Assembly: GCA_003116875.1 (NCBI GenBank) | Contig: BCKT01000001.1 | Span: 1,483,486-1,547,485, forward strand | DNA length: 64,000 bases | Direction: 5' to 3' | DNA from: Takashimella koratensis | Lineage: Eukaryota > Basidiomycota > Tremellomycetes > Trichosporonales > Tetragoniomycetaceae | Part shown: positions 2,233 through 58,549 of the stretch, piece by piece | Layout: the number at the start of each line of letters is the position of its first letter | Position numbering within the stretch: position 1 is the first letter of the stretch | The notes under the pieces: model-generated | Seen by the model: the letters and a program-made list of their open reading frames with translations, nothing else | Told to the model about the DNA's origin: nothing | Database searches by the model: none | Translations under genes and position numbers: made by a program

Positions 2233-3793
2233 ATGTTGATCTCTCTCCCTTCGCTCGTGCTTGCGCTCGGCGCTGCCGCCGCGGTACGCGCCGCATGCAC
2301 GGCAAACACCACGTCCACCTCCGACTTGCAGGCGCTGTTAACTCAAGGCGGGTCGGGATACACCTTGTCCCTCTGTGCGAGCCAGACGTACAGTCTCTCC
2401 GACATTCTCAACTTTACCGCTACCGCTCAGGTGAGTAACCTCCTCCTTCTCCTTCTCCCCAGATCACTCATCATCGATCCCATTCTGATCTCTTCTATGT
2501 GTTGAACCGATATTGACAATTCAATCTGTTCAATCTTTTCAGGAAATCTCTACGGAAAACTACCCAACCGATGATACGCGAGCTGTCCTTGTGGTTTCTG
2601 GGTTCAACATTACCACCGCTATCCAAGGCCAAGCCGCTGGTCTTGACGGATGCACGTTACGGAATATCCAAATCAACGGAAACCGAGGGGACGCAGTTAT
2701 CTATACCGGGTCCAACGCGAACATTGAGATGGGCGGTGCGAACGCTAACCAAACAATCGAGTACGTCCGGAGCTACGACCCCCGCGGTTGGTCGTGTTGC
2801 CATATCGCCGAGGGACCATTCCAATGCACCAACACGACCGTGCAGAACAACGATATCGGACCTTGCGGATCGAGTTATTTTCAAAACTGGGCAGACGGGA
2901 TCAGTCTCTCTTGCATGTCAAGTTTGGTTCAGAACAACGTGATTACAGATGCGACGGATGGTGGGATTGTCGTTTTCGGTGCCCCCTTTTCGACTGTTAG
3001 GAATAACACGATCCGAGTGAAGACGAGGACAATGTTGGGTGGGATCAACCTCGTCGATGTACTCCCCTGGCTACCAGAGGGCAACTACTCTCACACCCTC
3101 GTCGAGGATAATACGATTTACGGAGGTTTCGCGACGGATTTCGGTAACGCTTCGTTGGGTACGAACAACGCTTCAGCGGTGATCAAGATTGGAATCGCGG
3201 TGGGGCCTCAGACGTGGTTTGGGACTCAATACGGGACCAACCAATCTCGTGGCGGGACGGTTCAGAATAACGTCCTCTCTGGAGCCTTCTCATTCGGTAT
3301 GGCCGTAACTAGCGCCGCCAACTTTGTTATCCAGAACAACTCGTTTACAGGTAACACCTCTTTCATCGGTTCGTACGGGATCAACTGCACGACGGGTTCG
3401 CAGACTCCACACTTGCCTACCGCGTTGCTCGAGGACGAATCGCTACTCACCAACGTCACCATCTCCGCTGGGAGCTCGAGCTCCGCGACGACCGCCGGGA
3501 ACGCGGCGTTCATCAATGGGACAGGACTAGGGTTGACGTGTTTCGATACCCTGGGTGCGAGCGCGGTCGCTTGGCCTTATGGTGGTGGGCAGGTAGATTC
3601 CGCCGGGACCGCGCCGTCAGTCACCACGTCGAGTTCGCCAAGCTCCACAAGTAGCGCGTCGGCCACGTCGAGTAGTCCAGCGACGACGAGCAAGAGTAGT
3701 GCCGCGACGTCAACGATGGAGAGGACTCAGGCAGTGATGATGGTCGTCGCGCCCGTTGCACTCTTCGCTACTATCCCGGCGCTCTTGGTGTAA
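2233..3793 (+). CDS. Secreted parallel beta-helix (pectate-lyase-like) protein, probably GPI-anchored
   Basis: Exon 1 is 2233-2430, the intron 2431-2542 (GTGAGT...CAG), and exon 2 2543-3793, giving 482 residues. The N-terminus MLISLPSLVLALGAAAAVRA is a clear signal peptide. The body carries repeated rungs such as LRNIQINGNRGDAVIYTG, VQNNVITDATDGGIVVFG, VRNNTIRVKT, VEDNTIYGGF, VQNNVLSGAFSFGMAVTS and FVIQNNSFTGN, the N-N-x-I/V pattern of right-handed parallel beta-helix folds. Many N-x-S/T sequons are present. After about residue 395 comes a Ser/Thr/Ala-rich linker and then a hydrophobic C-terminus (MMVVAPVALFATIPALLV), consistent with a GPI-anchor signal. The family includes polysaccharide lyases and hydrolases, but the sequence alone does not show a substrate or catalytic residues. 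Confidence 0.85.
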
Positions 3794-11753: not shown

Positions 11754-14700
11754 ATGCCGCCAACAGATCCAGCCATCCCGCTCGTACACGGCAAGACGAG
11801 ATCCAAGCTCACGGGCGAGCCGCTGTTGTACTCGGTCTCCGTCTTTCTCAGTATAGGTGTCTGGCTTTTCGGGTGAGTTCGCGTGCAGCTTGAATGTTTA
11901 AGAACGCCCCCAAACTGACATCCTCGTTCCAGGTATGATCAAGGGTACGTACAGCTTACATCTCCAAGTGATTGAAAGCTGACCCGATGCCGACCTCAGA
12001 GTCATGTCTGGTGAGTAGAGATAGACTCGAGCAAAGCGTAAGGACCTCGCTCACCGCTTGCAGGTGTCATCACTGGACCATATTTCAAGTAAGTCTGGCG
12101 TAAAAACACTCGTTACATGAGCTAACCACCTATTCCAGAGCATACTGTAGGCATCTTATCCAGATCAGAAGGCCCAACTAACCCTACACAGTCCACCAAC
12201 CCACCTCCACGGAGCTCGGCAAGTACGTACCTTTGCTCTGTCTTTGTGCCGGAAACACACTGACAGTGCTACAGCATGGTCGCCGTGCTGGAGATTGGAG
12301 CTTTCAGTGAGTCTCGCACAAGGCGAAACTTACCTCTTGCACGGGATGAGAACTAACATCGTGCTCAGTCACGTCCCTGCTTGCGGCGTCAATAGCAGAT
12401 ACCTACGGCCGACGCATGACCCTGCGCTCGGGCGCCATCTTGTTCACTATTGGCGGCGCGTTTCAGACTTACTGCAACGGATACGGCATGATGGTGTTCG
12501 GTCGAGTGATCAGTGGATTCGGTGTCGGCATGTTGAGGTGAGCTCGAGCGTCCGGTGAATATGGTGCTGACGATGATCAGTATGGTAGTCCCTATTTACC
12601 AATCGTGAGTATGAGTAAGATGAATAGTTGTGTGGGAAGAGTGAATACTTACAAAGTTCAGAGAAATCTCGCCAGCAGACCACGTGAGTCCCTTGTCTTG
12701 CTCAAATGATAAGAGTGCTGATGGTCGTAGCGAGGTTTCCTTGGCGCCCTGGAGTTTACAGGAAACATTGTAGGCTACGCATCTTCAGTCGTAAGTGTCA
12801 GAAGCAAACAACTACCCTTGACGTATCAGGGACTATGGGCTGATTGAACCCCACCGCAGTGGATCGACTATGCTTGCTCCTATATTCAATCAGACTGGTC
12901 ATGGCGTCTCCCACTTTTCGTCCAGTGCATCGGCGGTACTCTCTTGGCCATTGGCAGTCTCGTCACTCCTGAATCTCCTCGGTAAGCCAGGTTGCTGGAG
13001 GTGAAGCTGCTTTGAGCGATGCTCTGACAATCACTCCAGATACCTCATTGACCGAGATCACGAGGTTGAGGGACTCGCGGTGATTGCCGACTTCCAGGGG
13101 GCGTCGTTGGACGACTACAAAGTGCAGGCCGAATACAAAGAGATCCGCGATGCAGTTTTGGCCGACGTGAGTGAACCGAGAATTCACGAGATCGCTCTTC
13201 AGAGATACTCATCATAGCTGACTTGAGGACAGCGCGCGCTCGGTGATCGGTCTTACAAGGCCCTGTGGAGGAGGTACAAGAGTCGCGTGATGATCGCTAT
13301 GAGCAGTCAGATGTTTGCGCAGCTGAACGGCATTAATGGTGGGTCTTTGCAGACGGTCGGGAAGGGGCGGAGGTTGCTGACTTTGGTTCTCTCTGTTCAG
13401 TCATCTCGTACTATGCTCGTGAGTCTGCTGCGATTTCTTTCTCGTACGAAGTGATAGCTGACTGTTTTCAGCTCTTGTGCGTTTCCCAATTCATCGCAAT
13501 CTCAACTGTGTTTGACAAAACTAACATGAATCTGCGTTTTTTCAGGTATTCGAACGTGAGTGCATTAAGATTGCTGGCGAACTACTGTTGCAAAGGACTC
13601 CACTGACATGACCAGAGGCCGGATGGATCGGACGTGACGCGATCTTGATGACGGGTATCAACGCCCTTTGCTACGTTGCCAGTTCTGTCCCTCCGTACGT
13701 CGTATCCCTCTCTTCGAAACTAACAGCCAGATGGTTTCTCACCGACCGAGCGGGACGTCGACCTATCCTCCTCTCTGGAGCCGTGGCGATGGCGATCGCT
13801 CTCACTGCTACCGGATGGTGGATCTACATTGACCAAGCTATCACCCCAAACGCAGGTACGTCAGCAAGTTCGTGACGTATCTTAAGTAGACCTGATCTGC
13901 GGACTGATATTCTGCAGTGGTGATCTGCGTGATCATTTACAACGCCGCGTTTGGAATGAGTTGGGGCCCGATTCCATGGTTGTACCCACCCGAGATCATG
14001 CCGCTTCCTTTCCGCGCAAAAGGTGTTTCTATCTCCACGGCTACCGTAAGTACAGCTTTGGGTCATCTTCTCGGGCACCTTCAGCTGACACACTTGCACA
14101 GAACTGGCTATTTGTAAGCATTCCCCGTTGGAGTGAAAACTCCATGACGCACACTAATGTTGCAGAATTATTGGGTCGGAGTTTCGACACCGCTCTTCCA
14201 GGAACTCATCGGGTGGAGGCTGTACCCGATGCACGCGTTCTTCTGTGCTCTCTCTTTCGTTCTCGGTGAGTGCGGATTTGCGTCGCCGCTTCGTGAGATG
14301 ACAAATGCTGATATTGTCCAGTCTACTTTTGTAAGTTTGCTGTTTATTCCCTAGCTTCTTCACAGCCAACTAATGATCAGTGTACCCCGAAACCCGTGGC
14401 GTGCCGCTCGAGGAGATGGACAAGTGAGTTCCATCGCCAGTCTCACAAGAACATTAATACTAACCTTTGCTCCAGGCTCTTCGGAGACGAGAATCTTGGC
14501 GAAGACGATGACGAGGACGACGAAGACGATGATGAAGACGACGACGACGGAGAAGGATCTGACACCTCGTCCATAACCGGCAGCCTACGCCCTGGGTCCT
14601 CGTCCCTTCCGACGTCGCGCAAGCCGTCGCCAATGCCGGAACGGATCGACGGGTCTCGACCACCAGGCGTACTGATTCGGTTCGCAGATGCCGTAGACGG

Positions 14701-14782
14701 GCTGTTTGGGGGTTCAAGGAGGAAAAGAAGAGAGTCGTTGAGAGGGCAGTATAACGCCGTTGGTGGTGGACCGGAACAATAG
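11754..14782 (+). CDS. MFS sugar transporter (hexose-transporter-like) with acidic cytoplasmic tail
   Basis: Spliced exons give a 12-TM sugar porter. Motifs in order are FLSIGVWLFGYDQGVMSGVI, ITSLLAASIADTYGRRMTLR, FGRVISGFGVGML, PIYQSEISPADHRG, LVTPESPRYLIDRD, QLNGINVISYYAPLVFEQAG, TDRAGRRPILLSGA, GMSWGPIPWLYPPEIMPLPF and VYFLYPETRGVPLEEMDKLF. GR(R/K), PESPR and PETRG are the family signatures. It should import a monosaccharide or related solute at the plasma membrane; the substrate is unknown. After the last TM comes a long Asp/Glu run (14500-14553) and a Ser/Pro-rich tail ending GGGPEQ at the TAG of 14780-14782. The gene is extremely intron-dense, with micro-exons of 12, 11, 8, 5 and 10 nt. 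The start at 11754 (MPPTDPAIPLVHG) is preferred; an in-frame ATG at 11631 would add a Pro/Ser-rich leader. Confidence 0.88.
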
Positions 14783-14823
14783 GAACTCGCGAGTGAGTAA
14801 ATGTCCCCCCCCCCCCCCCCCAG

Positions 14824-20300: not shown

Positions 20301-20969
20301 GTTGACTTGTGACCTTGTGGTGGGGGAGGGTGAAAACAGTTGATTCGACCACTTGGGCGAGCTGAGCGTGCAGGAGGATTTGAGAGAGCACTGGAACCTG
20401 TCCTGCGAAAAAAGGCTTTGTCGAGAGCACCAAAGTTGAGGGGCTTATATATCACCAACTCAATCTCCGCAGCTTGGTTTGCGATACTGACAAGCGGCAC
20501 TGCGAATGACCTTACACTCTTTGTGACTCCCGAGACATGACATTTTACTCCTAGCTGCGGAGTTGAGTTGTTTTTCTTTCTCCTCGATCTGCTGGCCGTC
20601 CTCCTTCGACCTCCAAGACACTTCCGTTGACTGCTCTCGGCTCCCTCGATGTCGACTTACAGTCCCAAAAGGTCGTTCGTTGCTCTTTGTCTGTTCGGGC
20701 CCCTTGATACAGCTCGGAGATGACATCCTTTGGTCTCGACCTTTGGAGAACCCTTTGTACTCTACTGCGAGAGGCTCCGTGTGGTGATTGAGGACTCCGT
20801 GTCGCGCCCGCGGGGCTGCGGAAGGGGTCGCGGCGGGGTGTCGGGTGTCGCGCGTCGGAGGGGGGGGGGNNNNNNNNNNNNNNNNNNNNNNNNNNNNNNN
20901 NNNNNNNNNNNNNNNNNNNNNNNNNNNNNNNNNNNNNNNNNNNNNNNNNNNNNNNNNNNNNNNNNNNNN

Positions 20970-21035
<66 letters not shown>

Positions 21036-27090: not shown

Positions 27091-27398
27091 GCTAGACCCT
27101 CATAATAAAACAAAACACACTGTAACGAAAACTTCCAACTATCGCTTTCTTCTATGGGTGTACAGATTATGTACTTTGGTGTTCATGCAACCCGGTTGTC
27201 TCGGCTCACTACACCTCAGTTGGGAAGAAAGGATTAGTCAAGCTCAGATTGAGCCCCGCGATTTTGACCATCGACGGAGCTGCTGTAGAGGTAAGAAAGG
27301 ATCGAATACACATGACGGTAAAGTACAGTGGCAACATATAATGGGACTATCCAGCGTGGGGCTATCCAGCTCCCACAACGGTGAGGAACCTCTTCTCT

Positions 27399-27437
27399 GC
27401 TCCCTGCTCCCTGCTCCCTGCTCCCTGCTCCCTCCTC
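27399..27437. repeat. GCTCCCT heptanucleotide tandem repeat
   Basis: Five perfect units of GCTCCCT from 27399, then CCTCCC. It lies between the two-TM gene and the first member of the small-gene cluster. Confidence 0.85.
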
Positions 27438-27493
27438 CCATATGTTCTCATAGGCTCTTTGTTCCGTATTATACTCTGTGCCCCTCATGATTC

Positions 27494-28051
27494 CTAGTGC
27501 TCGGTCTGCTGCACCGGAGAGCTCTCAGTGGGTGCGTCGGGGATCGCAGTTTGCACCTCTGTCGTATCCGTCTCCACGCCTGAGAAATCAGTAACTGTTT
27601 CCTCGTCGTTTTCAGGGTCTGCCTCCACGGGGTTGGAGGGAGGGTACACCTTCATGACCAAACGGTAAGCTCCAGGGCCATTTCGGATGACTCTTGCGTC
27701 CAGCTGGAGATTCAGATACCTGGCTATCAACAACCGAGGGCCACGCGACTTCCGCAGGAGGAGAGTTGAGACCTGTCTCTTCCGCATTCGAAGCATGTTC
27801 TTCTTCCATCGACAAGATCCTGTTTTTCAAATTCGTTTTCAGTACTGTAAGCTGGCGATTGGATATAAGGTCTTTCACATCTTTCTCCCACTCGGTCTCC
27901 CATTCCGTCCATCTAGCATCTTGTAACTCTGCAAGCCATGGATCGCCAAACTCGAGTCGAAACGCGGGATCATGGGTAAGAAACTTTCGATTGAGTGAGC
28001 GTATCTCTGAATGGGTCTGAGACCTGGGAAGAGCTCGTCGTCTTCTGACAT
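27494..28051 (-). pseudogene. Cluster member 1, frameshifted copy
   Basis: The ATG at 28049-28051 starts MSEDDELFPG, but the family-like sequence SQTHSEIRSLNRKFLTHDPA, FRLEFGDPWLAELQDARWTE, WETEWEKDVKDLISNRQLTV and TGLNSPPAEVAWPSVVDS lies in another frame (change near 28025-28040). The C-terminal part LDARVIRNGPGAYRLVMKVY is in a third frame (change near 27695-27705). The neighbour at 28542 has the same two blocks (TGLHTPPPETSWILSV; FSRAPGAYRLELKVY) in one frame. I therefore read this as a decayed or mis-sequenced paralogue. No intron with proper sites fits either shift. The tail ends SSPVQQTEH at 27494. Confidence 0.6.
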
Positions 28052-28541
28052 TGTGGATAGCGCTGTTACAGGTGGGAGATCGGGCTGGAAAGTATGTAGG
28101 AGAGCAATAAGACAGAGAGAGGGAAGTGACAGAAAGTGAGGTGTGAAGGCGGGCAGAGCAGACAGAAACAACAACGGGCGCCGGGTGAGCTGAGCGGCTC
28201 GGCGCAAACCGTTGGGCAGAAAGGAGTACCGTTTTCACACCCAGCCTCGCCTTTGAACCCCATCATCACCAAGGAGGCATGGGTAGGAGAAAGGATCGAC
28301 GTGTGCATAAGCCATGCAGCGTGAATTCGTACTGGTTATGGAGGAGAAATGGGCAACAAGCCTACCTATTCTATATACAGTATGTCCTGCCACTCCATCA
28401 ACTTCTTGTACGTGTACGGGGTATGTACAGGATCATGTTCTGCTGCTTTCACACGTGAACTTGACTTGTTTGCTCAACTTGAGAGAGCTCATGCTGCACC
28501 TTCGGCTGCTCCGTCCCCTGCCCAGACATCCCACAACCACT

Positions 28542-28994
28542 TCAATTAACGTCTGCGTCGTCGCCCTCGATAGTCTGCGGAACCGCATAGACTTTCAACT
28601 CTAAACGATAAGCTCCCGGGGCGCGACTAAATAGCGTAGCCTCAACTGGAGGTTCGCCTTGCTTGTGAGTAACTGATAAAATCCACGATGTCTCCGGAGG
28701 TGGGGTATGAAGCCCAGTTCTCGCTCGAGTCCAAGAACAACCCTGTTCAGCCCGGGTGATATACTCTCTCAAAGATTCCTTGAGACTCTCACGCTGCTCG
28801 ATGGAGACAGTCCCAGGGACGTCACTCATCCATTTGTCTGTCCAATCATCCCATTCTTTGTCCTGGGACGTGGGGGTGGAAGTGGGCGTTGAATTGAGGT
28901 CGATGCTGGGATAATCCGGTAAGCCCCGGTTAAAGAGGTACTGCACTCCTTCAAGCTTTGATCTCTCTGCGACCGCGTGGTTATACTCTGTCAT
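28542..28994 (-). CDS. Cluster member 2, small intronless protein (150 aa)
   Basis: It starts MTEYNHAVAERSKLEGVQYL and ends EGDDADVN. The N-terminal part has PDYPSIDLNSTPTSTPTSQ, then a Trp-rich helix, EWDDWTDKWMSDV, and an amphipathic helix, SIEQRESLKESLREYITRAE. The C-terminal half reads TGLHTPPPETSWILSV and FSRAPGAYRLELKVYAVPQT. It is the intact close relative of the frameshifted copy at 27494. YRLELKVY stands where other members have IELTVKIY. Function is unknown; no known domain was recognised. Confidence 0.7.
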   Translation of the reverse strand: MTEYNHAVAERSKLEGVQYLFNRGLPDYPSIDLNSTPTSTPTSQDKEWDDWTDKWMSDVPGTVSIEQRESLKESLREYITRAEQGCSWTRARTGLHTPPPETSWILSVTHKQGEPPVEATLFSRAPGAYRLELKVYAVPQTIEGDDADVN

Positions 28995-29434
28995 TGTGGA
29001 CTAGGCTTGAAAAAGGCGGGATGAAGTTGAGGATGAAGAAACGGAGAGAGACGGAAAGCCGGGGGTTGTGAGCTCGCTTGTAGGTCATGAGAAGGCCCAG
29101 AGGAAAGGGTGTGGAGCAGACTGCCAGAGAAAGGACCCCCCGGGAGACGATAACGGATGGTGGAGTGAAAACTGATCTGCGCTGCTCTCGGGCGCAGACG
29201 GGCTAGAGAAAAGAGTCAATTTTACGTCCCGGCTCGGTAGTTTCACGCACGATGATCCCGAGGCGGAGAGAAAAGTGACGGGGACAGCGAATGTGCATGC
29301 GCAGCTGTACTATGTAATCCAGCTGAGAAGGAGATCCATTCTCTCAACATAGGAAATAAGTGGTACTACGGGCACACGTCAGGTGCTTTCAATGCACTTC
29401 CTAACTCTGAAGTCGCTTCCAAGCAGTAGCATAA

Positions 29435-29980
29435 TCATTCAGATTCAGAATCATCTGGGTGATAGCCATCGGCACCTAGGTACTCTGAAGCGGGGCTGCC
29501 ACCCTCTCTAATCGTTGGAAGATGGCGGGAATGATCAGAGCTGTCAGAAGCGGTTGAAGTCGAATAGATTTTGACAGTCAGCTCAATGAGAGGAGCATTC
29601 ACCGCTTCGTTAGTGTGCTCAATGAAGTTCTCGGAAGCTTTGTAAACCATGTCACAAACACGTCCATGGTCGCGGAGAGTCGCCTGAGCCAACAACCTGA
29701 ACATTGCTGGTTTCTCTTGCATCATTTCGATAACCCTGCTCACAATGTCGTCCAGGTGGCCAGGCGGCAAAGAACCTGAAAGTCCCGATGTGAGTGCTGT
29801 GGTACAACCCTCTCGCCACTGGCTCTGTAGCAAATCCAACTGCGTCGAGTCGCTGTTGTTCAAAGCCCGGGGATAAGGCTGTATGTTAAAGCGGTGGTTT
29901 GATCCATCTGAGCTAGCACTTGCTCCTCCACTCGATAACCCCGGTCCAGAGGAAGAGGAAGATGAGTGAGTTTCCTGCAT
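29435..29980 (-). CDS. Cluster member 3, small intronless protein (181 aa)
   Basis: It starts MQETHSSSSSSGPGLSSGGA. The core reads HRFNIQPYPRALNNSDST, LLQSQWREGCTTALTSGLSG and SLPPGHLDDIVSRVIEMMQE, then AQATLRDHGRVCDMVYKASE, with the final strand APLIELTVKIYSTST. An acidic tail ends YHPDDSESE. The QWREGCTTALTSGLSGS block matches EWRRECLRALTSSLSGS of the member at 31886, the clearest pairwise similarity in the cluster outside members 1/2 and 4/5. A block about 280 bp upstream of its start is also duplicated upstream of 31886. Function is unknown. Confidence 0.75.
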   Translation of the reverse strand: MQETHSSSSSSGPGLSSGGASASSDGSNHRFNIQPYPRALNNSDSTQLDLLQSQWREGCTTALTSGLSGSLPPGHLDDIVSRVIEMMQEKPAMFRLLAQATLRDHGRVCDMVYKASENFIEHTNEAVNAPLIELTVKIYSTSTASDSSDHSRHLPTIREGGSPASEYLGADGYHPDDSESE

Positions 29981-30249
29981 TGTGTGGTGTGTAGACGTCT
30001 GTTATAAGCGAAGGCCTCGCGTACACGTCGGTAGGGGTGATGGATGGCAAGGTTCCCTTCCTGAGACTGTGTTACCCAGGGTATATTTGATCAGCAGCAT
30101 TTACAGGTCTTTAAGCGAGTACTGTACGCTCGTGCGGTGATTGGTATGAAGAAAAAGGGTGGAAACGGTATGCCCAATATTTAGATAAGTACGCCACGGG
30201 AGCAAAAGTATCCTGGAGCTGGACATTACAAGAGGAGCCGTCTTGGCCG

Positions 30250-30395
30250 TTGTCTGTCTAGCCTTCCATGCTACCCCTTTACCACCGGTAAGCGGTGACA
30301 TTTAAAAGCAAAGGAAGTGCCGGAGGCGAGCAGATAGAGAAAAAGGTGGCAAAGGATGGGGATACCGTACAGACTGGTCAAGCCCTTTGTGGGAC
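30250..30395 (-). repeat. Upstream block of member 3, related to 32741-32880
   Basis: TAGCCTTCCA at 30259 and 32750 opens a similar stretch in both places. It is followed by AAGCGG(T/C)G..ATTT(A/G)AAAG, then a (C/T)GGAGG block and (A/G)ATGGTCAA-like text. Distances to the start codons are 279 and 283 bp, so the two promoters look duplicated with their genes. Confidence 0.55.
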
Positions 30396-30648
30396 GTTGC
30401 CAAGGTGGAGTGTCGCTGAAGGCTTTGTCCACCTCGGGAGTAAACACCTGGGGAGGCCAGTCAAAATGTGCAGCAAAGTATCCTGGTGCTAATCATTCCC
30501 TCAATGCGCTTCCCTAGATGTAAAGCATTTATTGACATAGGAAAGAATACTTGCATCTCTCGGCTGTTCGCTCGCTCTATCACCTCGGCAACACAATTCA
30601 AGACTCCGGCTCGTCAGAAGGGAAGCCGTCGACATGCACATTCAGTGA

Positions 30649-31161
30649 CTAAGCGTCAGCATACTCCACAACTTCTGAGGAATGCGCTTCGGGACGATCC
30701 GCATCTTCGGCCGCGAGTGAACCCTCGTCAATCGAAACGGTAAGTTCAATTGTTTCTGCTTTAAGCCTGTTAGGCTCCTGTGAATAATTGACCACATAGC
30801 ACGTCGCGTCACAAGCATCTGGTGACTCGTTGTTTGTGACTGTCGCAAAGAATCTATTTGAGCCGGGTGAGCTTGTGATTCTTTCCAGAGCCGCGGCTAC
30901 CAGAGCACCGATACAATGATCAATCAACATCTCAGAGAGTAACGATCGTAAGGTGTCGCCACATTCTTGCTTCCTTTGGGTTTGGCGAAGGTGAAGATTG
31001 TTCAAATACGATGGGTCGTTGCTGTTTGGTGCTTGATCTGAGAACATTGGGTAAAGAGGGACGTCAATCACAGTTTCCCTTGTCTCTGAGTTATCATCTG
31101 TAGCGCCTGCAATCGGTTTGGTAACCAGAGAAGCGGTTCCGGCTGCATAGTTGTTCTCCAT
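30649..31161 (-). CDS. Cluster member 4, small intronless protein (about 170 aa)
   Basis: The start is placed at MENNYAAGTASLVTKPIAGA because the neighbour begins MENGYASE; an in-frame ATG at 31176 would add five residues. The core has VIDVPLYPMFSDQAPNSND, RQTQRKQECGDTLRSLLSEM, LIDHCIGALVAAALERITSS and PGSNRFFATVTNNESPDACD, then the strand ETIELTVSIDEGS and an acidic C-terminus. The blocks CIGALVAAALERITSSPGSNRFFA and CIGTLVSAITERVGRSPGSVRFFA (member 5) align almost residue by residue over 24 positions, showing recent duplication. Function is unknown. Confidence 0.77.
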   Translation of the reverse strand: MENNYAAGTASLVTKPIAGATDDNSETRETVIDVPLYPMFSDQAPNSNDPSYLNNLHLRQTQRKQECGDTLRSLLSEMLIDHCIGALVAAALERITSSPGSNRFFATVTNNESPDACDATCYVVNYSQEPNRLKAETIELTVSIDEGSLAAEDADRPEAHSSEVVEYADA

Positions 31162-31885
31162 GATCCTCTGTGTCAATGAGTGATGGTATTAGAATGGTCG
31201 TGCAAGCAAGTATCGGGCCGAAGATAACCTTGTGAAGAATCTAGAGTGGGAGATAGACATGTCAAGCAACGGGCAGCTACCGTTCGCCAAGGTCACTTAC
31301 AGTAGCTATGAGTGTCTTTATCCGCTTAGAGGATGAGTGAAAGTAGAAAATGTAAAAGCGACATCATGTTCAACAGTCTGATCAGCGAGAGAGCAGCGAA
31401 GACAAAACCTCTTACTCGCCGATAGCTGGCACCGACCATGTAGCAGTGACCCAAGCGGCTGTCTGCCGGGTCTTCAAGGCAGTACGTGTCCCGAATGACC
31501 GGCGAAGGGAGAGCTCAAAGGGAGCACAGAGGTCGGAGGAAGATGGTAAGAAAAGGGATTCTGGACATATCTGGGAAGTTCCGAGCACGGGCGAGGCTTG
31601 ACAAACCTCTCGAGACGAAATGTCGCTCACAAACTTTCTCACCTCGGTAGCAGATATCTGAGCAGACCAGAAAGGCCAAAATACGCTTTCAGACGACAGA
31701 GCGATAAACTCGCTGCCATATACGCCTGGTTGGAATGGAAACTGGATATTGTCATAAAAACAAACGGGAAAAAAGAAGGAACGTCGCTTCTACGTATGCC
31801 CTAGCACTGTATGCAATACTTATGTGTGCTTCACTACTTGCACCTTTCGGATGCCTCCTCGATTCTCAAGTTTCGACAATATCAT

Positions 31886-32467
31886 TCAAGCCGCTGAGTC
31901 TTCAGAAGATGTGTCGTTGACCAGCTCTTCCTCAGGCGACGCCCCACTGACTTCTGCCCTTGACGGCGGACGCCCTTCGGGACTGTCTCGGTCTCCAGAG
32001 GGGGACGCATTAGAGGCCCGTTCAATGGTGACTCTGAGCTGGATAGGATGCCCACTCCGCCCACGGCCGGGGTTCTCTTCATAGTGATCGTCCACGTAGC
32101 AGTACGCTTGGCATGTGTTGTCTCTCTCGGTTGAGACATTGGCGAAGAACCGGACCGACCCAGGAGAGCGTCCAACCCTTTCGGTAATCGCACTCACCAG
32201 AGTGCCGATGCATGCTTGAGTCATTGACCCCGATAGCGAGGAGGTCAGTGCTCTGAGACATTCTCTTCTCCACTCCGCCTGGAGCAATGCCAATCTGTGT
32301 CCGTACAAAGAGTCGCTGCTGCTTAGCGTGAGGGCTGAAAAATGGGGATAAGGCGGGAGGGAAATCGGAATACCCTCTGTCACCAGATTGCCATCAGCGT
32401 CGTCGGTCCTCCTTCTGATCGACTCATCGGCTTGAGATGACGTTTCGGATGCATATCCATTCTCCAT
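31886..32467 (-). CDS. Cluster member 5, small intronless protein (193 aa)
   Basis: It starts MENGYASETSSQADESIRRR. The core reads GIPISLPPYPHFSALTLSSS, LLQAEWRRECLRALTSSLSG, TQACIGTLVSAITERVGRSP, GSVRFFANVSTERDNTCQAY and CYVDDH, then HPIQLRVTIERASNASPSGD. The acidic tail ends LVNDTSSEDSAA. It is the best template for the family, since every shared element is present: LPPYP, WRRxC, helix, F-A-N-V strand, D-x-C hairpin and final strand. Its closest relative is member 4, immediately downstream. Function is unknown. Confidence 0.77.
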   Translation of the reverse strand: MENGYASETSSQADESIRRRTDDADGNLVTEGIPISLPPYPHFSALTLSSSDSLYGHRLALLQAEWRRECLRALTSSLSGSMTQACIGTLVSAITERVGRSPGSVRFFANVSTERDNTCQAYCYVDDHYEENPGRGRSGHPIQLRVTIERASNASPSGDRDSPEGRPPSRAEVSGASPEEELVNDTSSEDSAA

Positions 32468-33171
32468 GGTGTGATGTGACGAGCGTTCTCTTGGGTGAGG
32501 AGTCGCGCTCAGTTGTGGTCACGCGGACAACGAGATTACCTTGAGAGGCTTCTAGGATACGGATGGTCTTGCCAAAAATGGGCAACTATCGTATTCAGGC
32601 CTGATTCACTGGCGAAGAGTGTGAATGCACTTGTTCGTTGAACAGTGAGGGAATAGTATGGTCGAAAGAAAGATAAGTGGGCAGACAGAGATATGTATGG
32701 CATGCTGATAGCTAGAGAGCACAAAGGATTGCTCTAGGCGTCGTCACCTTAGCCTTCCAGGCTATACGTGGTGCAGCTCACAAGCGGCGGGATTTGAAAG
32801 GGAGTATAAAAGCTGGAGGTAAGGAGACAGTGGTAAAGGTAGGTCGACAGGATGAGGATGACCCACAGAATGGTCAAAGGTTCAAAAAAATGTCACCGAG
32901 TCGGAAAGCCGTCCACTACCCCCAAGAGTGCAAGTTGCCAGCACGTTTTGGGAATGACGCGGGAGCAGGAAATGCGCTTGGGAAGCGACCCGAGAGGTAT
33001 GATGGCTTACATTCGCCCCAGATTGGTCTGATAACGGATTGCTTGTCTACACCAACCGAAAGGACACTAGCTTTACTGAAGAGCTCTGCTATCACCAAGA
33101 AAGTTGCAGAAGGTGTGCATGACCAATCCAGGAGGTATTCGCCCTGATAAGCCTCGGCCACTCGCCCTAAC

Positions 33172-33657
33172 TTATGCGTTTTCTGTCTCAATGCACATCA
33201 GCCCAATGCCGGAAGTCTCAGCTTTCGAAGAGTCCCGAATGACATTGATAGACACGTTGAGCTCGATTGTGTCTTCCTCTTCTTCACTGTTTTCCCCGCA
33301 ACTTTCTCCGGTTTGCGAAGGCTTTGGTGCGATAACATAGCTCACCAGAGACGCAGAATCGTTTCTCTCATCAAATATGAAAGAGGCATAGAGTCCAACT
33401 TCTCTCAATTGCGAAAGCGTCAACTTTGCCATTTCTTGGGTGACTTTGAGAGCGAGGGTATCCCTGGACGCTTTTGGTAGGTCTCGGAACAGCGAGCGCT
33501 GCAATATGTTGAGGTTGTTCCAAGCCCAAGATCTCTTGGTCTCGTTCACCTGTGATGGACTCATGGTCGATAGAGTTGACTCCAAGTCCCAAGGAGGGGA
33601 TGACAGATATACTTGAACTGTGTTCGTGATCACGTCGGGTTTTGTTTGTTCCATCAT
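33172..33657 (-). CDS. Cluster member 6, small intronless protein (about 161 aa)
   Basis: The start is placed at MMEQTKPDVITNTVQVYLSS, similar to the MMQQ/MEN starts of other members; an upstream in-frame ATG at 33732 is possible. It has VQVYLSSPPWDLE, a helix with W (RSWAWNNLNILQRSLFRDL), DTLALKVTQEMAKLTLSQLR, the strand EVGLYASFIFDERNDSASLV and the final strand DTIELNVSINVIRDSSKAE after an acidic run. The Cys of the central helix is replaced. Its layout is closest to member 8 (LAKPSLEGLKKMKVTAHVMM). Function is unknown. Confidence 0.7.
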   Translation of the reverse strand: MMEQTKPDVITNTVQVYLSSPPWDLESTLSTMSPSQVNETKRSWAWNNLNILQRSLFRDLPKASRDTLALKVTQEMAKLTLSQLREVGLYASFIFDERNDSASLVSYVIAPKPSQTGESCGENSEEEEDTIELNVSINVIRDSSKAETSGIGLMCIETENA

Positions 33658-34455
33658 CCTCAAATGCGGGGAATATGACAATTGTAATGTATATGGGCTC
33701 GTAGCAGACCCGTACCGTGAAGCTTGAATCACAGTATAAAAAAGGCAGTAGGGAGAATGGTTAACAGAAAAATATAAACAAACTTAGTGCAGAGGGGTCG
33801 AAGTATTTTCAAGCAAGTCTCTGGGATTGCGGGCTGGGGCGGAGGCTTTCAAACGAAGACCCATCCCCATCCCCGTCCCCATTCTCAATTGGCTGACTCC
33901 CGACCAACCCAACGGTGGCAAAATGAGCTGATACCGAATCTCTTGCCCGCTTGGGTAATGGAACTCTCAACCCCATTGTCTCCCTACTCGACTCTACCTC
34001 CTTTTCAGAGCGGAGCAGTGGTACAGAGCGGTCAATCCAGAGCCAGAGCGGGGGCGCAAAAAACATCCGAGGCGCCAGTCAGTCTATAGCGAGTCTTTGA
34101 GCGAGAAAATCATGTTTTTGCGCGATTGCTGTGGGGAAAATAGGGAGAGGGAGGGAGGGGAAACGAACACCGGATTTGAGGAATCCACTTGGAAAATGCG
34201 GGTTCAGAAGAAGTGGCTGACCCTAGGTGCAACTCGCATTCCAATAGGACTGGTAGAATTTGTTTTAGTCAAGGGTACCGATGCAAGGCTGAAATCAATG
34301 TCGCCGCTCTGGGGCGCCACAGCTGACTTGGGCAACTTAATGTCTCCAGTGATATCACACCTACGTCACCCTTCTCCTTCACGCATTCTACTTTGAGTCT
34401 TCTACATGATCGTCTCTGGACCTGACCAAGAGGTAGAGTGGTGGTGGACTATCTA

Positions 34456-34875
34456 CTACGATTTGAGTGGTTTGGTGATGAGCAACTTGAGAGGTATCTT
34501 TCCTTCAATGCTGCTGATCGTCTTGGGCTGGTCGAAAGAAGCTGAACAGGACACGGAAGTAGGTTCATCCTTATCATTAAGGGTGATTTGTGCAGTCAAC
34601 CGAACCCTAGTCTGTTCAGAAAGATTGTGAGAATCGGTTATACTATTGATCTTTTCCACGAGGGGCTGAGTACAAGAGGGGGGAAGCGTTCGGGGCAGAT
34701 GGTACTGCAGACACTTGGTGTAGTCCGACTTCCATTCTTGTCTAAGGCTGGATTCCAGTTGATCATCGGGACCCAGAAACGTATCTTCCGTGTAATTTGG
34801 GGGAGCTGGCAGGAGGAGCTCCATATTGCTCGAAGACGAATATTGATCGTTGTTTATCCTTTCTGCCATCTCCAA
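34456..34875 (-). CDS. Cluster member 7, small intronless protein (139 aa)
   Basis: It starts MEMAERINNDQYSSSSNMEL. The core reads MELLLPAPPNYTED, LESSLRQEWKSDYTKCLQYH, LPRTLPPSCTQPLVEKINSI, RVRLTAQITLNDKDEPTSVS and CSASF, and it ends PLKLLITKPLKS. It has the family's Pro strand, W/C helix and paired strands, but it stops right after the last strand with no acidic tail, making it one of the shortest members. Function is unknown. Confidence 0.7.
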   Translation of the reverse strand: MEMAERINNDQYSSSSNMELLLPAPPNYTEDTFLGPDDQLESSLRQEWKSDYTKCLQYHLPRTLPPSCTQPLVEKINSITDSHNLSEQTRVRLTAQITLNDKDEPTSVSCSASFDQPKTISSIEGKIPLKLLITKPLKS

Positions 34876-35373
34876 GCGATGTGTTCGACAAGGTATTTAC
34901 GTCAAGTTCAAGATCGAGCGTGAACAGAAACTCTAGTTTCGAGTTTGAAGCTGTTGGTCTTAGCGTTGAGGAAGAGAAAGAGTGTTGAGAAAAAGGGGAA
35001 GGTTGTCGGGGGGGATGGGTATATGAATAGTTAGCGACGCAACGTTTTCACTGCTGGCAGATCGGCAGTAAATGCATATCTCCCGAGCGGAGCCCCATTG
35101 ACAAGGACATGGGAAGCTCGCATTGGTCTTCTGATTTCAAAAACATGAGCCTCCGTTCAATGTAGCGGAGCTAGTGCGGGAGTAAAGAGACGCAAAAGTG
35201 TACTCACCAAAGGAGAAAAAGGTGGAGAAAGGAAGGCGGAGCAGCAAAAGCAGGCATTTAGTGCCATGACATTTTGAAGGGGTTACGTCCACACCTGCGA
35301 GTAAGCCAAGGCTACAGTACATCTTGACCACCTCCCTCTCTTTTGACTCTCATCTATTGGACCACAATAGACG

Positions 35374-35904
35374 TCAAAGGTGGTCAACCCCGTCGGTCTC
35401 CGTGGAGAGTAGCCGCCGGGTCGCCGATCCTCCGTCGCTGAAGAGTGTTGGTATGCGAGTCAAGAAAACTTCAAGCTCGATGGTGTCTCCGTCATCGCTG
35501 TCAGGGCCTCCATGCTTCGCTTCCCCTCCCGGGTCCGTCGTCTCTGTCGTCGGAGTTGTCGGCAAGGTGGTGCATTCGATTTCACAACTCTTGTTGACTT
35601 CACTCATCATCACGTGGGCGGTGACTTTCATCTTTTTCAATCCCTCCAGACTGGGCTTTGCAAGTTCGGAGACCACTTTCTTACCCAGCGCAGCGAATTC
35701 TCTCTTGGATAGCGAGCGTGAGAGAGCTCCTGCTATTGTGGAGAGACACGCATGTAGCCATGCATGCTGGACGTTGAGCCCTTCAGTATCGACGAGGGTA
35801 GGAGTCGGAAGTTGGATGAGGTACGTCGTCGTGTGCGAGCGTGAGAGAGCCGCGTCACTCTCACCGAGGTCGTGAAGGTTGTCGGTCTCAATTTGTTGCA
35901 TCAT
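35374..35904 (-). CDS. Cluster member 8, small intronless protein (176 aa)
   Basis: It starts MMQQIETDNLHDLGESDAAL. The core reads TTTYLIQLPTPTLVDTEG, QHAWLHACLSTIAGALSRSL and FAALGKKVVSELAKPSLEGL, then the strand KKMKVTAHVMMSEVNKSCEI, ECTTLPTTPTT, an acidic Gly/Asp loop and the strand DTIELEVFLTRIPTL. It ends TDGVDHL. All family elements are present, with W and C in the central helix and a Cys pair in the hairpin. Function is unknown. Confidence 0.72.
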   Translation of the reverse strand: MMQQIETDNLHDLGESDAALSRSHTTTYLIQLPTPTLVDTEGLNVQHAWLHACLSTIAGALSRSLSKREFAALGKKVVSELAKPSLEGLKKMKVTAHVMMSEVNKSCEIECTTLPTTPTTETTDPGGEAKHGGPDSDDGDTIELEVFLTRIPTLFSDGGSATRRLLSTETDGVDHL

Positions 35905-36495
35905 CTCTGTGTATTCGCTGGGGTGTAGACGACGAGTGTCGGTGGAGTCAATCTGTGGGTCGAGAGTTGAGTGTCAAAGCGTCACTGGATACTGTGAGAA
36001 GTACTTTATATGTAGTATTGGAGCAGGGAAGCACGAAGTGTGAACCGCTGCTGAGTAAGCTGTTGGATTCACAGTCAGCGCCCGGCCCGATACACTGGCG
36101 GTTCAAAAATCAGCTGGAGGCCTTCTCAGCGCGACACAACTCCATCCTTTGAGAGGCGCTGAAGTGGCCCACTTGGGGGCTCGAAATTGTACCAAAGCGG
36201 ACAAGCGGACTGCTCACTCGAGCGAGCGAGGAAGAGCAGACAAGGTTTTGGCGAGCCAACCGGGACATGCAAGACGGAATTCGATGACCCTTCACACTTA
36301 CTTGCAGATATATTGGGAACAAGAAGGGGAGCAAAGCGCTGCACGACTGACAGACGGTCCGCAAATTTATTCATGCTCTCGGACTTATCAAGCGACTACC
36401 CAGGCAGGCCAGCACTAGTCAAATGTACTTCCTTCACATAAAAAGGACTTCAACTTTGGTGATACCGATTCCAAGCCGCACTTTCGCTCTCCAGT

Positions 36496-37035
36496 CTATT
36501 CCTCAACAGTTTCTGATCGATCCTTTTCGATAGTCGCTAGCAAAGTCGATTCAGAAGGTTCAGCTTCGTTTCGATGCGGAGAGTTCAGGATAGATAATTC
36601 TAGCTCAAAATAGTCCGCGTCGGAGCTGCCAGCGGTTGAATTCTTGGGCAAGACACAGAGGTCAACAACGCAATTGTCGTCACTCTCGTCCACTGTGAGT
36701 TTTGCGAACAACCGACGCGTTTTCCAAGTCGATAATGGCAGCTTTTGGAGGTGGCTACTGACCTCGTGCGAAATTGCCTCGTAGCAAGAGCTGGAAATCT
36801 TCCAACCAAGACCGTTTCTCACAGCTTCTTGGCAGTTGGCTTCCCATTCCCGCCGAGGCTGAGCATGGGCTAACCAATCGGTGCTCGTCATCGTTCGGTT
36901 TGGGCGAGCCGAAGGGGGAAGGGGAAGGTTGATAGTGATGGTCATATTCTCCGTCAAATCACCAATATCTTCTGCCTCCGCAGACCGCGACAGATTACTT
37001 GTGGGCTTGGTCCTCATCTCGAGAAGATCGCTCAA
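36496..37035 (-). CDS. Cluster member 9, small intronless protein (179 aa)
   Basis: It starts MSDLLEMRTKPTSNLSRSAE. The core reads MTITINLPLPPSARPNRT, QPRREWEANCQEAVRNGLGW, KISSSCYEAISHEVSSHLQK, TRRLFAKLTVDESDDNCVVD and LCVLPKNS, then the strand YFELELSILNSPHRNEAEPS and an acidic end. A TATATA element lies about 55 bp upstream of the start on the coding strand. LFAKLTVDESDDNC aligns with FFANVSTERDNTC of member 5. Function is unknown. Confidence 0.73.
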   Translation of the reverse strand: MSDLLEMRTKPTSNLSRSAEAEDIGDLTENMTITINLPLPPSARPNRTMTSTDWLAHAQPRREWEANCQEAVRNGLGWKISSSCYEAISHEVSSHLQKLPLSTWKTRRLFAKLTVDESDDNCVVDLCVLPKNSTAGSSDADYFELELSILNSPHRNEAEPSESTLLATIEKDRSETVEE

Positions 37036-37089
37036 GTGATGTGATCGATGAAGGTGGGGAAGGCGGGGGGGAATACTTTCGCTGAGTCG

Positions 37090-37096
37090 TTATATA
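37090..37096 (-). promoter_or_regulatory. TATA-like element upstream of cluster member 9
   Basis: TATATAA on the minus strand, about 55 bp before the ATG at 37035. It was called from sequence and distance only. Confidence 0.35.
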
Positions 37097-37666
37097 GCAA
37101 GTGTTGGCTGTCAACAGACTGCTCGGCAGCAAAATAGAATCCGAATGAGCTCGCTTGTGAATATATAGGAGTGATCTGCCTTTGTCTCGCTTGATCATAG
37201 ACCGTCCTTTGTGGAAGAGCGAGACTGAGCCGCGGCTGAGTTGTAAGATGTCATAAAAGAGTGCCGAGCGGAGGCTTGGGTGTTTGAAAAAAAAGTGGAG
37301 TAGGCGGCATCATTATCGTTCCATGCCGATGCGAATAAGAATGATCCCTCTATGAGATGTCATGTCGATCAAGAGATGTGGTTTGTTGATCTAACGGAGA
37401 AATCTCATTACGAGATCAATGTAGATAGGTGAAAGGCGGACGGTGGGACATCGAGAGCAAAATTAATGTAAAGATTATCTATGCAATTTATCGACCAGCA
37501 AGTACAACCAAGTGCCCAGAAAAAGGGGCTGGAAAAGATAAGGGCAATGAGGCTATGAACAGAGATATATACGAGGCAACTCATTCGGAAAAGTACGAGT
37601 ACAATACGCAGGAGGACATGTGATATGAGATAGCAACAAGTCGCCCAAATAACCTCCACGGTAACC

Positions 37667-38119
37667 TCACTCAAGTCTCGTTTCGTCCATGCTCGACGAA
37701 TCGGTCGGCTCCAAAATGCCCGGCGTCCACGTTGCCCACAGCTCGGGTGAGACCGTCAACGTCCCGCTTCCGACAACCTGAGAGCATTTTCTTGAGAACG
37801 CTTGGGCAAGATTGGTGAGATCGGTCCACACTCGCTGTGCATCCAACGGATCGACATTCGCCGACTTGGAGATTGAGTAGAAGAAGTTTTCGCGGTCCTT
37901 CTCCCAACGGGAGAAGACTCTATGGCAGTAAGCATTGTAGGCATGGAGGAGGACCCTAACTGGCGTGAAGAGGGGCTGCGGGCGAAGAGTGAACGGTGGG
38001 CAGGAAGAGTCGGAGGGGGTCGAAGCTGGAATCTGGATGGATAGTTGTGGAGCGAGAAGGGACGACGAGGGCGTTGCATTCTGTATAGGGCGACCGACAA
38101 GCGAGGTGGCGGTAGACAT
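37667..38119 (-). CDS. Cluster member 10 (divergent), small intronless protein (150 aa)
   Basis: It starts MSTATSLVGRPIQNATPSSS. It has the strand LLAPQLSIQIPASTP, a Pro-rich stretch TLRPQPLFTP, a helix AYNAYCHRVFSRWEKDRENF with C and W, a second helix DAQRVWTDLTNLAQAFSRKC, and a C-terminal end TVSPELWATWTPGILEPTDS. The final IELxVxI strand is not evident, so membership rests on position, size, orientation, lack of introns and the N-terminal plan. Function is unknown. Confidence 0.6.
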   Translation of the reverse strand: MSTATSLVGRPIQNATPSSSLLAPQLSIQIPASTPSDSSCPPFTLRPQPLFTPVRVLLHAYNAYCHRVFSRWEKDRENFFYSISKSANVDPLDAQRVWTDLTNLAQAFSRKCSQVVGSGTLTVSPELWATWTPGILEPTDSSSMDETRLE

Positions 38120-38800
38120 TCCGATGTGTGGTGATGAAGAGTGAAGTGATTCTCGAGATGACTTGTATCGAGGTAGGAGTTGGTGGCTTTGGGTGTAAGG
38201 GAAATGTTGGCAATGGCACCGATGGATGGAAGGGAGAGAAGGGCTAGAAGACGAGGAAGAGAGGGAACTATAGGCAATAGGGGGAGGAGGTTGTGGGGGC
38301 TGGGACGTTGGGCAGAGGGAGAGTTGCGTGCCAGCTCGTGCTCAGTCAAATTGGTCACCACTCCAAGCGGGGTCTCAATCATTCTCTTTCAGCTCCATTA
38401 GTCCCTTCATACTGGTCGATCACTGGGGCTAGCTAAGGGGTTCGAAACGTGCAACATCGGGGGCGACCCTTTGAGGTCCAGTCGGTGCTCGTGGAGCGTC
38501 AAAGGATGGGGGAGGAGTAGGAGGGTTCGCTCCGAAGGCGGGTTGGGGCCAGGTATGACAGAGCAGTCACAGGCTCACGAGGAGAGGGTTTGGTCCTGCA
38601 GGAGGGTGACAGGCCGAGGGTACAGAGGCAGTGGCAATGCAGTGACAGAAGGCGAGGGTCATCTAGTCAAAGTTCATCACAGGTGGAAGACCAGAAACCG
38701 AAGCCTACAGTATACTGAGCACGGTAGGTCTTAGTAAATTGTAAATGGCTGAGTAAAGGCTACAGTACGAGAGCTGGCTTGGGAGCTTTTGTTGCCTTTC

Positions 38801-39202
38801 TCATTCTGTATCCCCATTTGTTGTGTTCTCTTCCGTGGGAGCGGTATGATGCCACTCAAACCGATTCTCATCGACCTCCACAAGTGAGCCTTGGACAAGA
38901 TCGACCCTTTTGATCTTGTTCTTGGCTTTACTGTATAAGACAGTATTCAGCCATCCCAACTCTCGTGTCGTGATAGTCTGGTTGTTGATTTCAGAGACTT
39001 CCTGGCAGTACGTATAGAACTTCGTTTTCCACGTTTCTAATGCTGTCTCACGATAAGCCGGGTCGTCGTTGATAAGGCGCGCGGATCGAAGAAAGTTTGG
39101 TGGAAGTGGTGGGAAAAGCTGGAATGTGTTGTTGCTGGCATCGATAGCTGAAAGGGCAGTGCTTGATGGTGTCGTGGCTACACTCTGCGTGGAAGATGGC
39201 AT
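38801..39202 (-). CDS. Cluster member 11 (divergent), small intronless protein (133 aa)
   Basis: It starts MPSSTQSVATTPSSTALSAI. It has the Pro strand NTFQLFPPLPPNFLRSARLI, the W/C helix ALETWKTKFYTYCQEVSEIN, a helix ITTRELGWLNTVLYSKAKNK, and a short C-terminal strand pair LVQGSLVEVDENRFEWHHT before an acidic end EENTTNGDTE. A TATATA element lies about 88 bp upstream of the start on the coding strand. The last family strand is weak or absent. Function is unknown. Confidence 0.62.
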   Translation of the reverse strand: MPSSTQSVATTPSSTALSAIDASNNTFQLFPPLPPNFLRSARLINDDPAYRETALETWKTKFYTYCQEVSEINNQTITTRELGWLNTVLYSKAKNKIKRVDLVQGSLVEVDENRFEWHHTAPTEENTTNGDTE

Positions 39203-39643: not shown

Positions 39644-40589
39644 TTATGACTTCTCTCCAGATCGTTCACGCACTACCCATCGTACCCCATCTGCATCTTC
39701 CGCATCCCACTCGTCCCCCTCTTTGAAACCTCTTGCCTTAACCGTCTCCACCGCCTCTCTCACCATCTTCGCCTCTTCAAGCCCGTCACCTTCCGTCGTC
39801 GCTATCCTGATTCTCTCCCACCCCTGTGCCCCTTTCTTCTCTTCTACAGCCACGTACACCTCTCCCCTCTTGATCAAACCCACCAATCTCTCTCCAATCT
39901 TCACTACCCACCCCTCCCTCCCTTTTCCACCTTCCGCCCGGCCCCCGTTCCCTTCGTTGCCAACACCGACCACGGAGGCAGGGCGAGCATGTGGGGTAGA
40001 AGACCGGGCACCGAGTTCGAGGACGAGCACCGGCGACTCAGAAGAGACTTCGACATCGTACCACACTTCCTCGAACGGCGAGTCAACCCCTGTGATCGGG
40101 TGAGGCATGTGACCCGTCTCAAGGGCCCAGTCGGGATTCGTTGGGTGTGGGACGGTGGTTGATTCTTCCGCGTTGTCGGGGAGAGAAGGGCCAGAGGTTA
40201 GGAACTGCGTCCACCGTGCTACAAGGAGTCAGCAGGGGTTTATCTAGTGTGGGCTGTGGGCTGTTATGGTAGAGTGGAGTTAAACCCGCCAGCTATCCGC
40301 TTGATCAAGACGACTGCGCAGTCAAAACTCTCTCCGACGTGCTTTGATCGTGACTTCCGATGACCCGACGCGAGATGGGGCGCTGGCTAGCAGGGCTTAG
40401 CTCACCTTTCCCGTTCGGTAGCTTCTCTTTCCGCCCCGCAGCACCTAGCTGCAGGTCCCCTGTCTCTCGTGAGACTCGGAGATCGACATACCTGCCCCTC
40501 CGCGAGGTAAGGACGGTCACGTATGCGTCCTCGCAGCTTGCCTCGGGCGGAAACTGGATCGATATTCGGGTAGACACGAGTGCGGCCAT
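39644..40589 (-). CDS. HRI1: Hri1-family protein
   Basis: Exon 1 is the complement of 40406-40589, the intron 40219-40405 (GTGAGC...TAG), and exon 2 the complement of 39644-40218. The 252 residues are close to the usual Hri1 length. It starts MAALVSTRISIQFPPEASCE, continues YVTVLTSRRGRYVDLRVSRE, then ARWTQFLTSGPSLPDNAEES, NPDWALETGHMPHPITGVDS and PFEEVWYDVEVSS, and ends WVVKIGERLVGLIKRGEVYV and DADGVRWVVRERSGEKS. The pattern (GRYVDLRV, W..F, W..E.G.M.HP.TG, EEVW.D) is that of Hri1, a small two-lipocalin-like protein of unclear role in yeast, found in the cytosol and nucleus. A stretch of about 30 residues (HARPASVVGVGNEGNGGRAE) looks like a lineage-specific loop. Confidence 0.85.
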
Positions 40590-57893: not shown

Positions 57894-57935
<42 letters not shown>

Positions 57936-58549
57936 GAGGGGAGGGGGGGAGGAGGGGGGATATGCGAAAGGAGGTGGGTAGCTTACAGGGGTTGCGCTGG
58001 AGGTAGGCGTATCCAGCGAGACCAGCCTGAATGGGATGATCAGCTTCACTCTCTCTCTTTCTCTTTTCCACGACAGAACCGGGCTAGAATAGGTTGGTTG
58101 TAGGTTGTAGAGAATGGACGCACAACGCCAAGACCACCGAGGATGAGTGGGAGGTCTGACAAATGTTAGCTAATTCAGCTGTTTATGGAAGAATCAATCG
58201 TAGATCGGGATAGCTTGGAAGTTGAATCTGAATTGTTGATAGAGGACGTGAGACGTACTGGATGAGCTGGAGGTAGGGGCCGAGGCGTACCCGCGGGCGA
58301 TGGGGCGGGCCTTTGTGGAGATGGTGGCACGTCAGCAGGAGCAGCGAAGAGTGGAGGCGGAGAGGTAGAGAGGTGGGGAGGTGGTGAGGTGGGGAACAAA
58401 GGGGTCAAGAAAAGAGAGGGTATCGAAGAGACGAGGAGAGGAGAGGAGAGAAGAGAAGGGAGGGGAGGAGGGGAGGAGGGGAGGAGTCGACGGCGACGTA
58501 CAGCGCGGGCGGAGCGAAGAGCTGCAGGAGCGGCGGTCTTTGCGAACAT
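56112..58549 (-). CDS. MCR1: NADH-cytochrome b5 reductase, mitochondrial type (Mcr1)
   Basis: It starts [17 protein letters not shown], a basic, Ser/Ala-rich mitochondrial-type leader. Then come [14 protein letters not shown], a hydrophobic anchor [20 protein letters not shown], and a helix [20 protein letters not shown]. The reductase part has [40 protein letters not shown] (FAD motif RxYTPxS), [40 protein letters not shown] (NADH-binding GGxGITP), [16 protein letters not shown] (CGPP), and ends [14 protein letters not shown]. It passes electrons from NADH to cytochrome b5 (sterol and fatty-acid steps, erythroascorbate recycling). Leader plus TM order indicates Mcr1 (outer membrane and intermembrane space) rather than Cbr1. 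An intron holds a 38-bp G run (57897-57934). Confidence 0.9.
57897..57934. repeat. 38-bp G homopolymer inside an MCR1 intron
   Basis: An uninterrupted G run, i.e. C on the coding strand just inside the intron. Like the gaps at 20870 and 42597, it marks G/C homopolymers as a recurring feature of this genome. Confidence 0.9.

Follow-up and report, generated by a model that had tools for sequence, protein, structure and literature searches.

The window analysed here, a stretch of 64,000 nucleotides from Takashimella koratensis, is part of contig 1 of a 25.1-Mb genome in 24 contigs. Ten intact ATG-to-stop frames, all on the minus strand and 133-193 codons long, lie within positions 27494-39202, together with an eleventh frame that is disrupted (Table 1). 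The ORF listing confirmed the original prediction on all of these points: the positions, the strand, the lengths, and the count of ten intact frames and one broken one. The cluster extends from an HRI1-family gene to a plus-strand frame near 26 kb, with gaps of 440-798 bases between its frames. The HRI1-family exon is 39% identical to a protein of Cryptotrichosporon argae, a tremellomycete. Just downstream of g11 there is a 7-base tandem repeat (CTGCTCC, 27389-27439). Elsewhere in the window, a 100-base N gap is followed directly by a 65-base run of G (20870-21034), likely a homopolymer assembly artefact, and a further G-rich run of 63 bases (83% match) is found at 57897-57959.

Table 1. Frames of the tandem array and its upstream boundary, listed from the 5' end of the array (minus strand). 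Coordinates are positions in the window.
Feature	Coordinates	Strand	Length (aa)	Assignment	Profile evidence
HRI1-family exon	39644..40228	-		upstream bound of cluster, outside family	PF16815, E 9.3e-11
g1	38801..39202	-	133	weakly linked member	
g2	37667..38119	-	150	membership unsupported; size, strand and spacing alone fit	
g3	36496..37017	-	173	core member	leave-one-out, E 1.1e-20
g4	35374..35904	-	176	core member	leave-one-out, E 6.6e-12
g5	34456..34869	-	137	core member without long tail	leave-one-out, E 2.7e-15
g6	33172..33657	-	161	core member	leave-one-out, E 1.4e-15
g7	31886..32467	-	193	core member, AlphaFold2 model	leave-one-out, E 2.1e-26
g8	30649..31161	-	170	core member, nearest g7	leave-one-out, E 8.1e-22
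g9	29435..29980	-	181	core member	leave-one-out, E 1.5e-16
g10	28542..28994	-	150	sister of g11; link to core bare	
g11	27494..28051	-		frame-disrupted g10 relative; start presumed	

The cluster contains 12 ORFs that start at ATG and span at least 130 amino acids; two of them run in other frames and overlap g2 and g4. Sequences simulated with an order-2 Markov model (200 of them) average 2.6 such ORFs, and none has more than 7. Codon scoring, with 11 flanking frames as the training set (Pfam matches exceed the cut-off in five, three were scanned without such a match, and three were not scanned), makes the named frame the best of six in nine of the ten intact genes. The exception is g2, where another frame scores marginally higher (0.004 versus -0.003). 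The eleventh frame had been described as broken, and it is: in g11 the putative start and the terminus share one reading frame, and the stretch resembling g10 (27702-27938; 30% identity to g10 residues 39-117, E 7.4e-7) sits in another. The gene may have decayed, the assembly may be in error here, or splicing may have gone unrecognised.

Judged by their profiles, g3 to g9 certainly form one family, to which we refer as the core. Each of the seven ranks first by leave-one-out profile among the 230 ORFs outside training (236 in all), with E values of 6.6e-12 to 2.1e-26, and scores 40-87 bits, whereas none of its 500 shuffles exceeds 8.6. The closest relative of g7 is g8, at 39-42% identity. Beyond the core, similarity fades by degrees. 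A suggestive link joins g1 to the family, in that its profile score against the core (8.1 bits) is equalled by 3 of 2000 shuffles and it comes top of the ORFs other than g3 to g9, both with the core profile and in each of the seven leave-one-out searches (E 0.0018-0.3). The link of g10 and g11 to one another is apparent, and their tie to the seven would be weak at best: g10 scores 2.4 bits, a value reached by 37 of 2000 shuffles, and the g11 piece (692 of 2000) does not stand out. Neither does g2 (390 of 2000), for which membership is unsupported by sequence and suggested by position only. Profiles built from the other nine proteins do not place g2 or g10 in their best five rows, hhalign gives g1, g2 and g10 less than 3% probability against the core (2.4% for g1), and genome searches with any of these three return no core member. 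Profile comparison of the kind that had been proposed thus recovers each of g3 to g9, g1 weakly and g10 more weakly, and leaves g2 unlinked. In other words, the predicted single family of eleven stands for the seven core genes, is suggestive for g1 and weak for g10 and g11, and is unsupported for g2.

The frames had also been predicted to lack introns. A search of both strands for a consensus intron pattern found no occurrence in the cluster; five flanking stretches of 1.4-3.4 kb contain 5, 1, 5, 0 and 0 occurrences of the same pattern. Chance predicts 0.84 occurrences in the cluster, so that random DNA would commonly show none; what argues for missing introns is solely the contrast with the two intron-rich flanking stretches, each with five. 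The prediction is supported in this sense, as an absence of intron signal. Across the window, 18 of the 22 intron-like signals on the plus strand crowd into 11872-14792, which is probably an intron-rich gene. TATA boxes precede three of the 11 genes (g1 at -94, g3 at -79 and -150, and g4 at -106), versus 1.8% of random windows, and were not found for the other eight. Their presence before three genes fits separate promoters, and the sequence suggests that each gene would be its own intronless transcription unit.

To compare the array with the rest of the genome, each of the ten intact proteins was used singly as a query, and the best candidates were scored. Within this scope, only the present locus answers credibly to core members in the whole genome. 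Two places were rejected as chance by the core profile: one on contig 8 (query g3, E 0.41), which by eye looks like a sugar transporter, and one on contig 4 (query g5, E 0.083), which looks like an oxidase. Searches with g2 pointed to contig 13 (E 0.012) and contig 14 (E 0.027). The core profile found nothing under E 1 among 664 frames from the stretches on contigs 4, 8, 13 and 14 and from 10 kb on each side of the window. Because this profile does not see g2, we compared g2 directly with the frames on contigs 13 and 14. One contig 13 frame matches at 18.5 bits, whereas 50 shuffles of g2 reach at most 10.4. The matching frame, at 2474-3334 of the contig 13 stretch, is by eye rich in Ser and Pro. 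This likeness may reflect a real distant relation or composition; that g2 may resemble something elsewhere is a further point against its place in the family.

Database searches were similarly silent. Among 5.8 billion proteins, neither the core profile nor g7 alone found a match at E up to 10, and g7 alone found none among viral contigs, prokaryote genomes and plasmids; these searches reach close relatives only. As a control, the HRI1-like exon found one database protein, that of C. argae, with which it has twelve 5-residue words in common. Within the array, such words are shared in just 2 of the 45 pairings of the ten proteins. With so few exact words in common among the paralogues, a relative at the same degree of divergence would escape these searches. 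The array is possibly restricted to its lineage.

Acquisition of the genes from a bacterium, a virus or a mobile element would explain the missing introns, and a cluster free of intron signals beside flanking stretches of which two of five carry five each would fit such an origin. We nevertheless consider this origin very unlikely. The G+C content of the cluster (50-53% in 2-kb bins) is inside the range of the window (48-61%) and so gives acquisition no support. Counter to it, also, are the empty searches of proteins and of viral or prokaryote contigs, within their reach of close relatives, and the lack of a viral fold match. In PHROGs, one of the seven core members has a single row (E 0.044), which we take as chance.

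The degree of divergence among the duplicates had been attributed to rapid evolution following duplication, and the data here do not show this. Across all 21 pairs of core genes, pS is 0.66-0.92 and pN is 0.40-0.59, with pN below pS in every pair. When the codons of one partner were put in random order, mean pS was 0.74-0.80 and mean pN 0.72-0.74, and the observed pN was below 20 of 20 such shuffles in every core pair, although this control is lenient, since alignment favours matches. Synonymous sites among g3 to g9 are saturated, which indicates that the duplications among them are old. With pN below pS as well, we interpret the seven genes as old duplicates that have retained some protein similarity.

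These values bear on two other explanations. The first, raised along with the original prediction, is that these are fast-evolving genes that take part in genetic conflict, such as self/non-self recognition, drive or defence. Tandem arrangement, one broken copy (g11) and the failure to detect relatives, in searches that reach close ones, would all suit such genes. However, with saturated synonymous sites and pN below pS, fast change is not demonstrated, and the STE3 (PF02076, contigs 2 and 15) and homeodomain (PF05920, contig 2) genes that we found are on contigs other than that of the array, to which we found no linkage. Participation in conflict seems to us quite unlikely. On contig 2 itself, about 26 kb separates a homeodomain gene from one for an STE3 receptor (2043636-2070893), with more STE3 pieces on contig 15, and this is possibly a linked mating-type locus. 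The second explanation, that the frames are recently born orphans, or in part chance ORFs, without selected function, we regard as highly improbable: homologues were not found and g2 looks unrelated, its frame not being the top one by codon score, but seven paralogues hold a coherent protein alignment despite saturation at synonymous sites.

The ten proteins are acidic (pI 4.3-6.1). By hydropathy none has a signal-like N-terminus, the highest 8-residue value in the first 32 residues of any of the ten being 1.47, and the predicted lack of a signal peptide agrees with this. The predicted lack of a transmembrane segment holds for nine of the ten, in which the 19-residue hydropathy maximum is at most 1.01, and is less sure for g8, which reaches 1.71 at residues 74-92, in a region aligned to helix 2 of g7. 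The usual mark for a membrane segment is 1.6; this hydrophobic stretch is borderline, and g8 is likely to be without such a segment. Pfam gave no match above the cut-off for any of the ten proteins (six have one row each below it), as expected from the earlier statement that they carry no known motif, and we found no catalytic or binding motif in them.

An AlphaFold model of g7, computed from seven sequences, has a mean pLDDT of 68.7 and a pTM of 0.55. Within residues 31-150, ten of the 12 ten-residue blocks have a mean pLDDT of 74-93 and the remaining two are at 65 and 54. The model contains a strand (28-37), two helices (53-78 and 84-100) and three further strands (106-114, 118-125 and 142-151). 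We are fairly confident in the predicted core of g7, a beta-alpha-alpha-beta-beta-beta arrangement between disordered ends. A model of g10, whose input was without core sequences, is of low confidence (54.1) and has the same order of elements plus an extra N-terminal helix. No fold stands out in the PDB and viral fold libraries, which does not make the fold new, and the core profile matches no PDB sequence at E up to 10.

Dynein light chains of the LC8 and Tctex types are small proteins with two helices followed by strands, a plan that the predicted strand-helix-helix-strand-strand-strand order of the g7 core resembles. The array could accordingly consist of diverged members of an old and widespread eukaryotic fold of this kind, acting as adaptors that bind short linear motifs. 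Arguing against this case, no Pfam row for these families appears at E up to 1 for any of the ten proteins, the absence of PDB sequence matches extends to these chains, and none is among the 50 rows listed for each PDB fold search, a result that falls short of proving absence. We judge such a relationship decidedly unlikely.

The explanation that we consider best, though we hold it tentatively and at somewhat short of even chances, is a tandem array of old local duplications, possibly lineage-restricted, that encodes small intracellular binding proteins. Old, local gene duplications would have made the array. Its products, small and acidic, with the predicted core flanked by disordered ends and often with an acidic tail, would stay inside the cell and most likely bind another protein. 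A binding role is suggested because the proteins belong to no recognised enzyme family and have no secretion-like start. The paralogues would then have diversified in their partners or in the timing of their expression. A more specific version, in which a single founder without introns gave rise to all eleven genes, its fold an undescribed beta-alpha-alpha-beta-beta-beta one, and the paralogues have diversified into a clade-specific recognition repertoire that binds different partners, appears unlikely.

Small, diverged proteins encoded in tandem clusters are familiar among the secreted effectors of fungi. The array is like these in being tandem and in the size and divergence of its proteins, and differs from them in N-termini that show no likeness to secretion signals by hydropathy. 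Other parallels are lineage-specific tandem families, also termed orphan or taxonomically restricted. The array has in common with them a single locus, short and diverged local duplicates, no relatives found in searches for close relatives, and no intron signal. In contrast to such families, its duplicates are old rather than recent.

Looking across the entire analysis, the array holds a protein family that these searches connect to nothing known, with a predicted fold that is fairly confident and unmatched. Through long divergence the array has remained a single row, free of intron signals, whereas several occur in some of its neighbours. If sister species showed turnover in copy number, the array would be a tractable case of the origin and diversification of an orphan family in basidiomycete yeasts.
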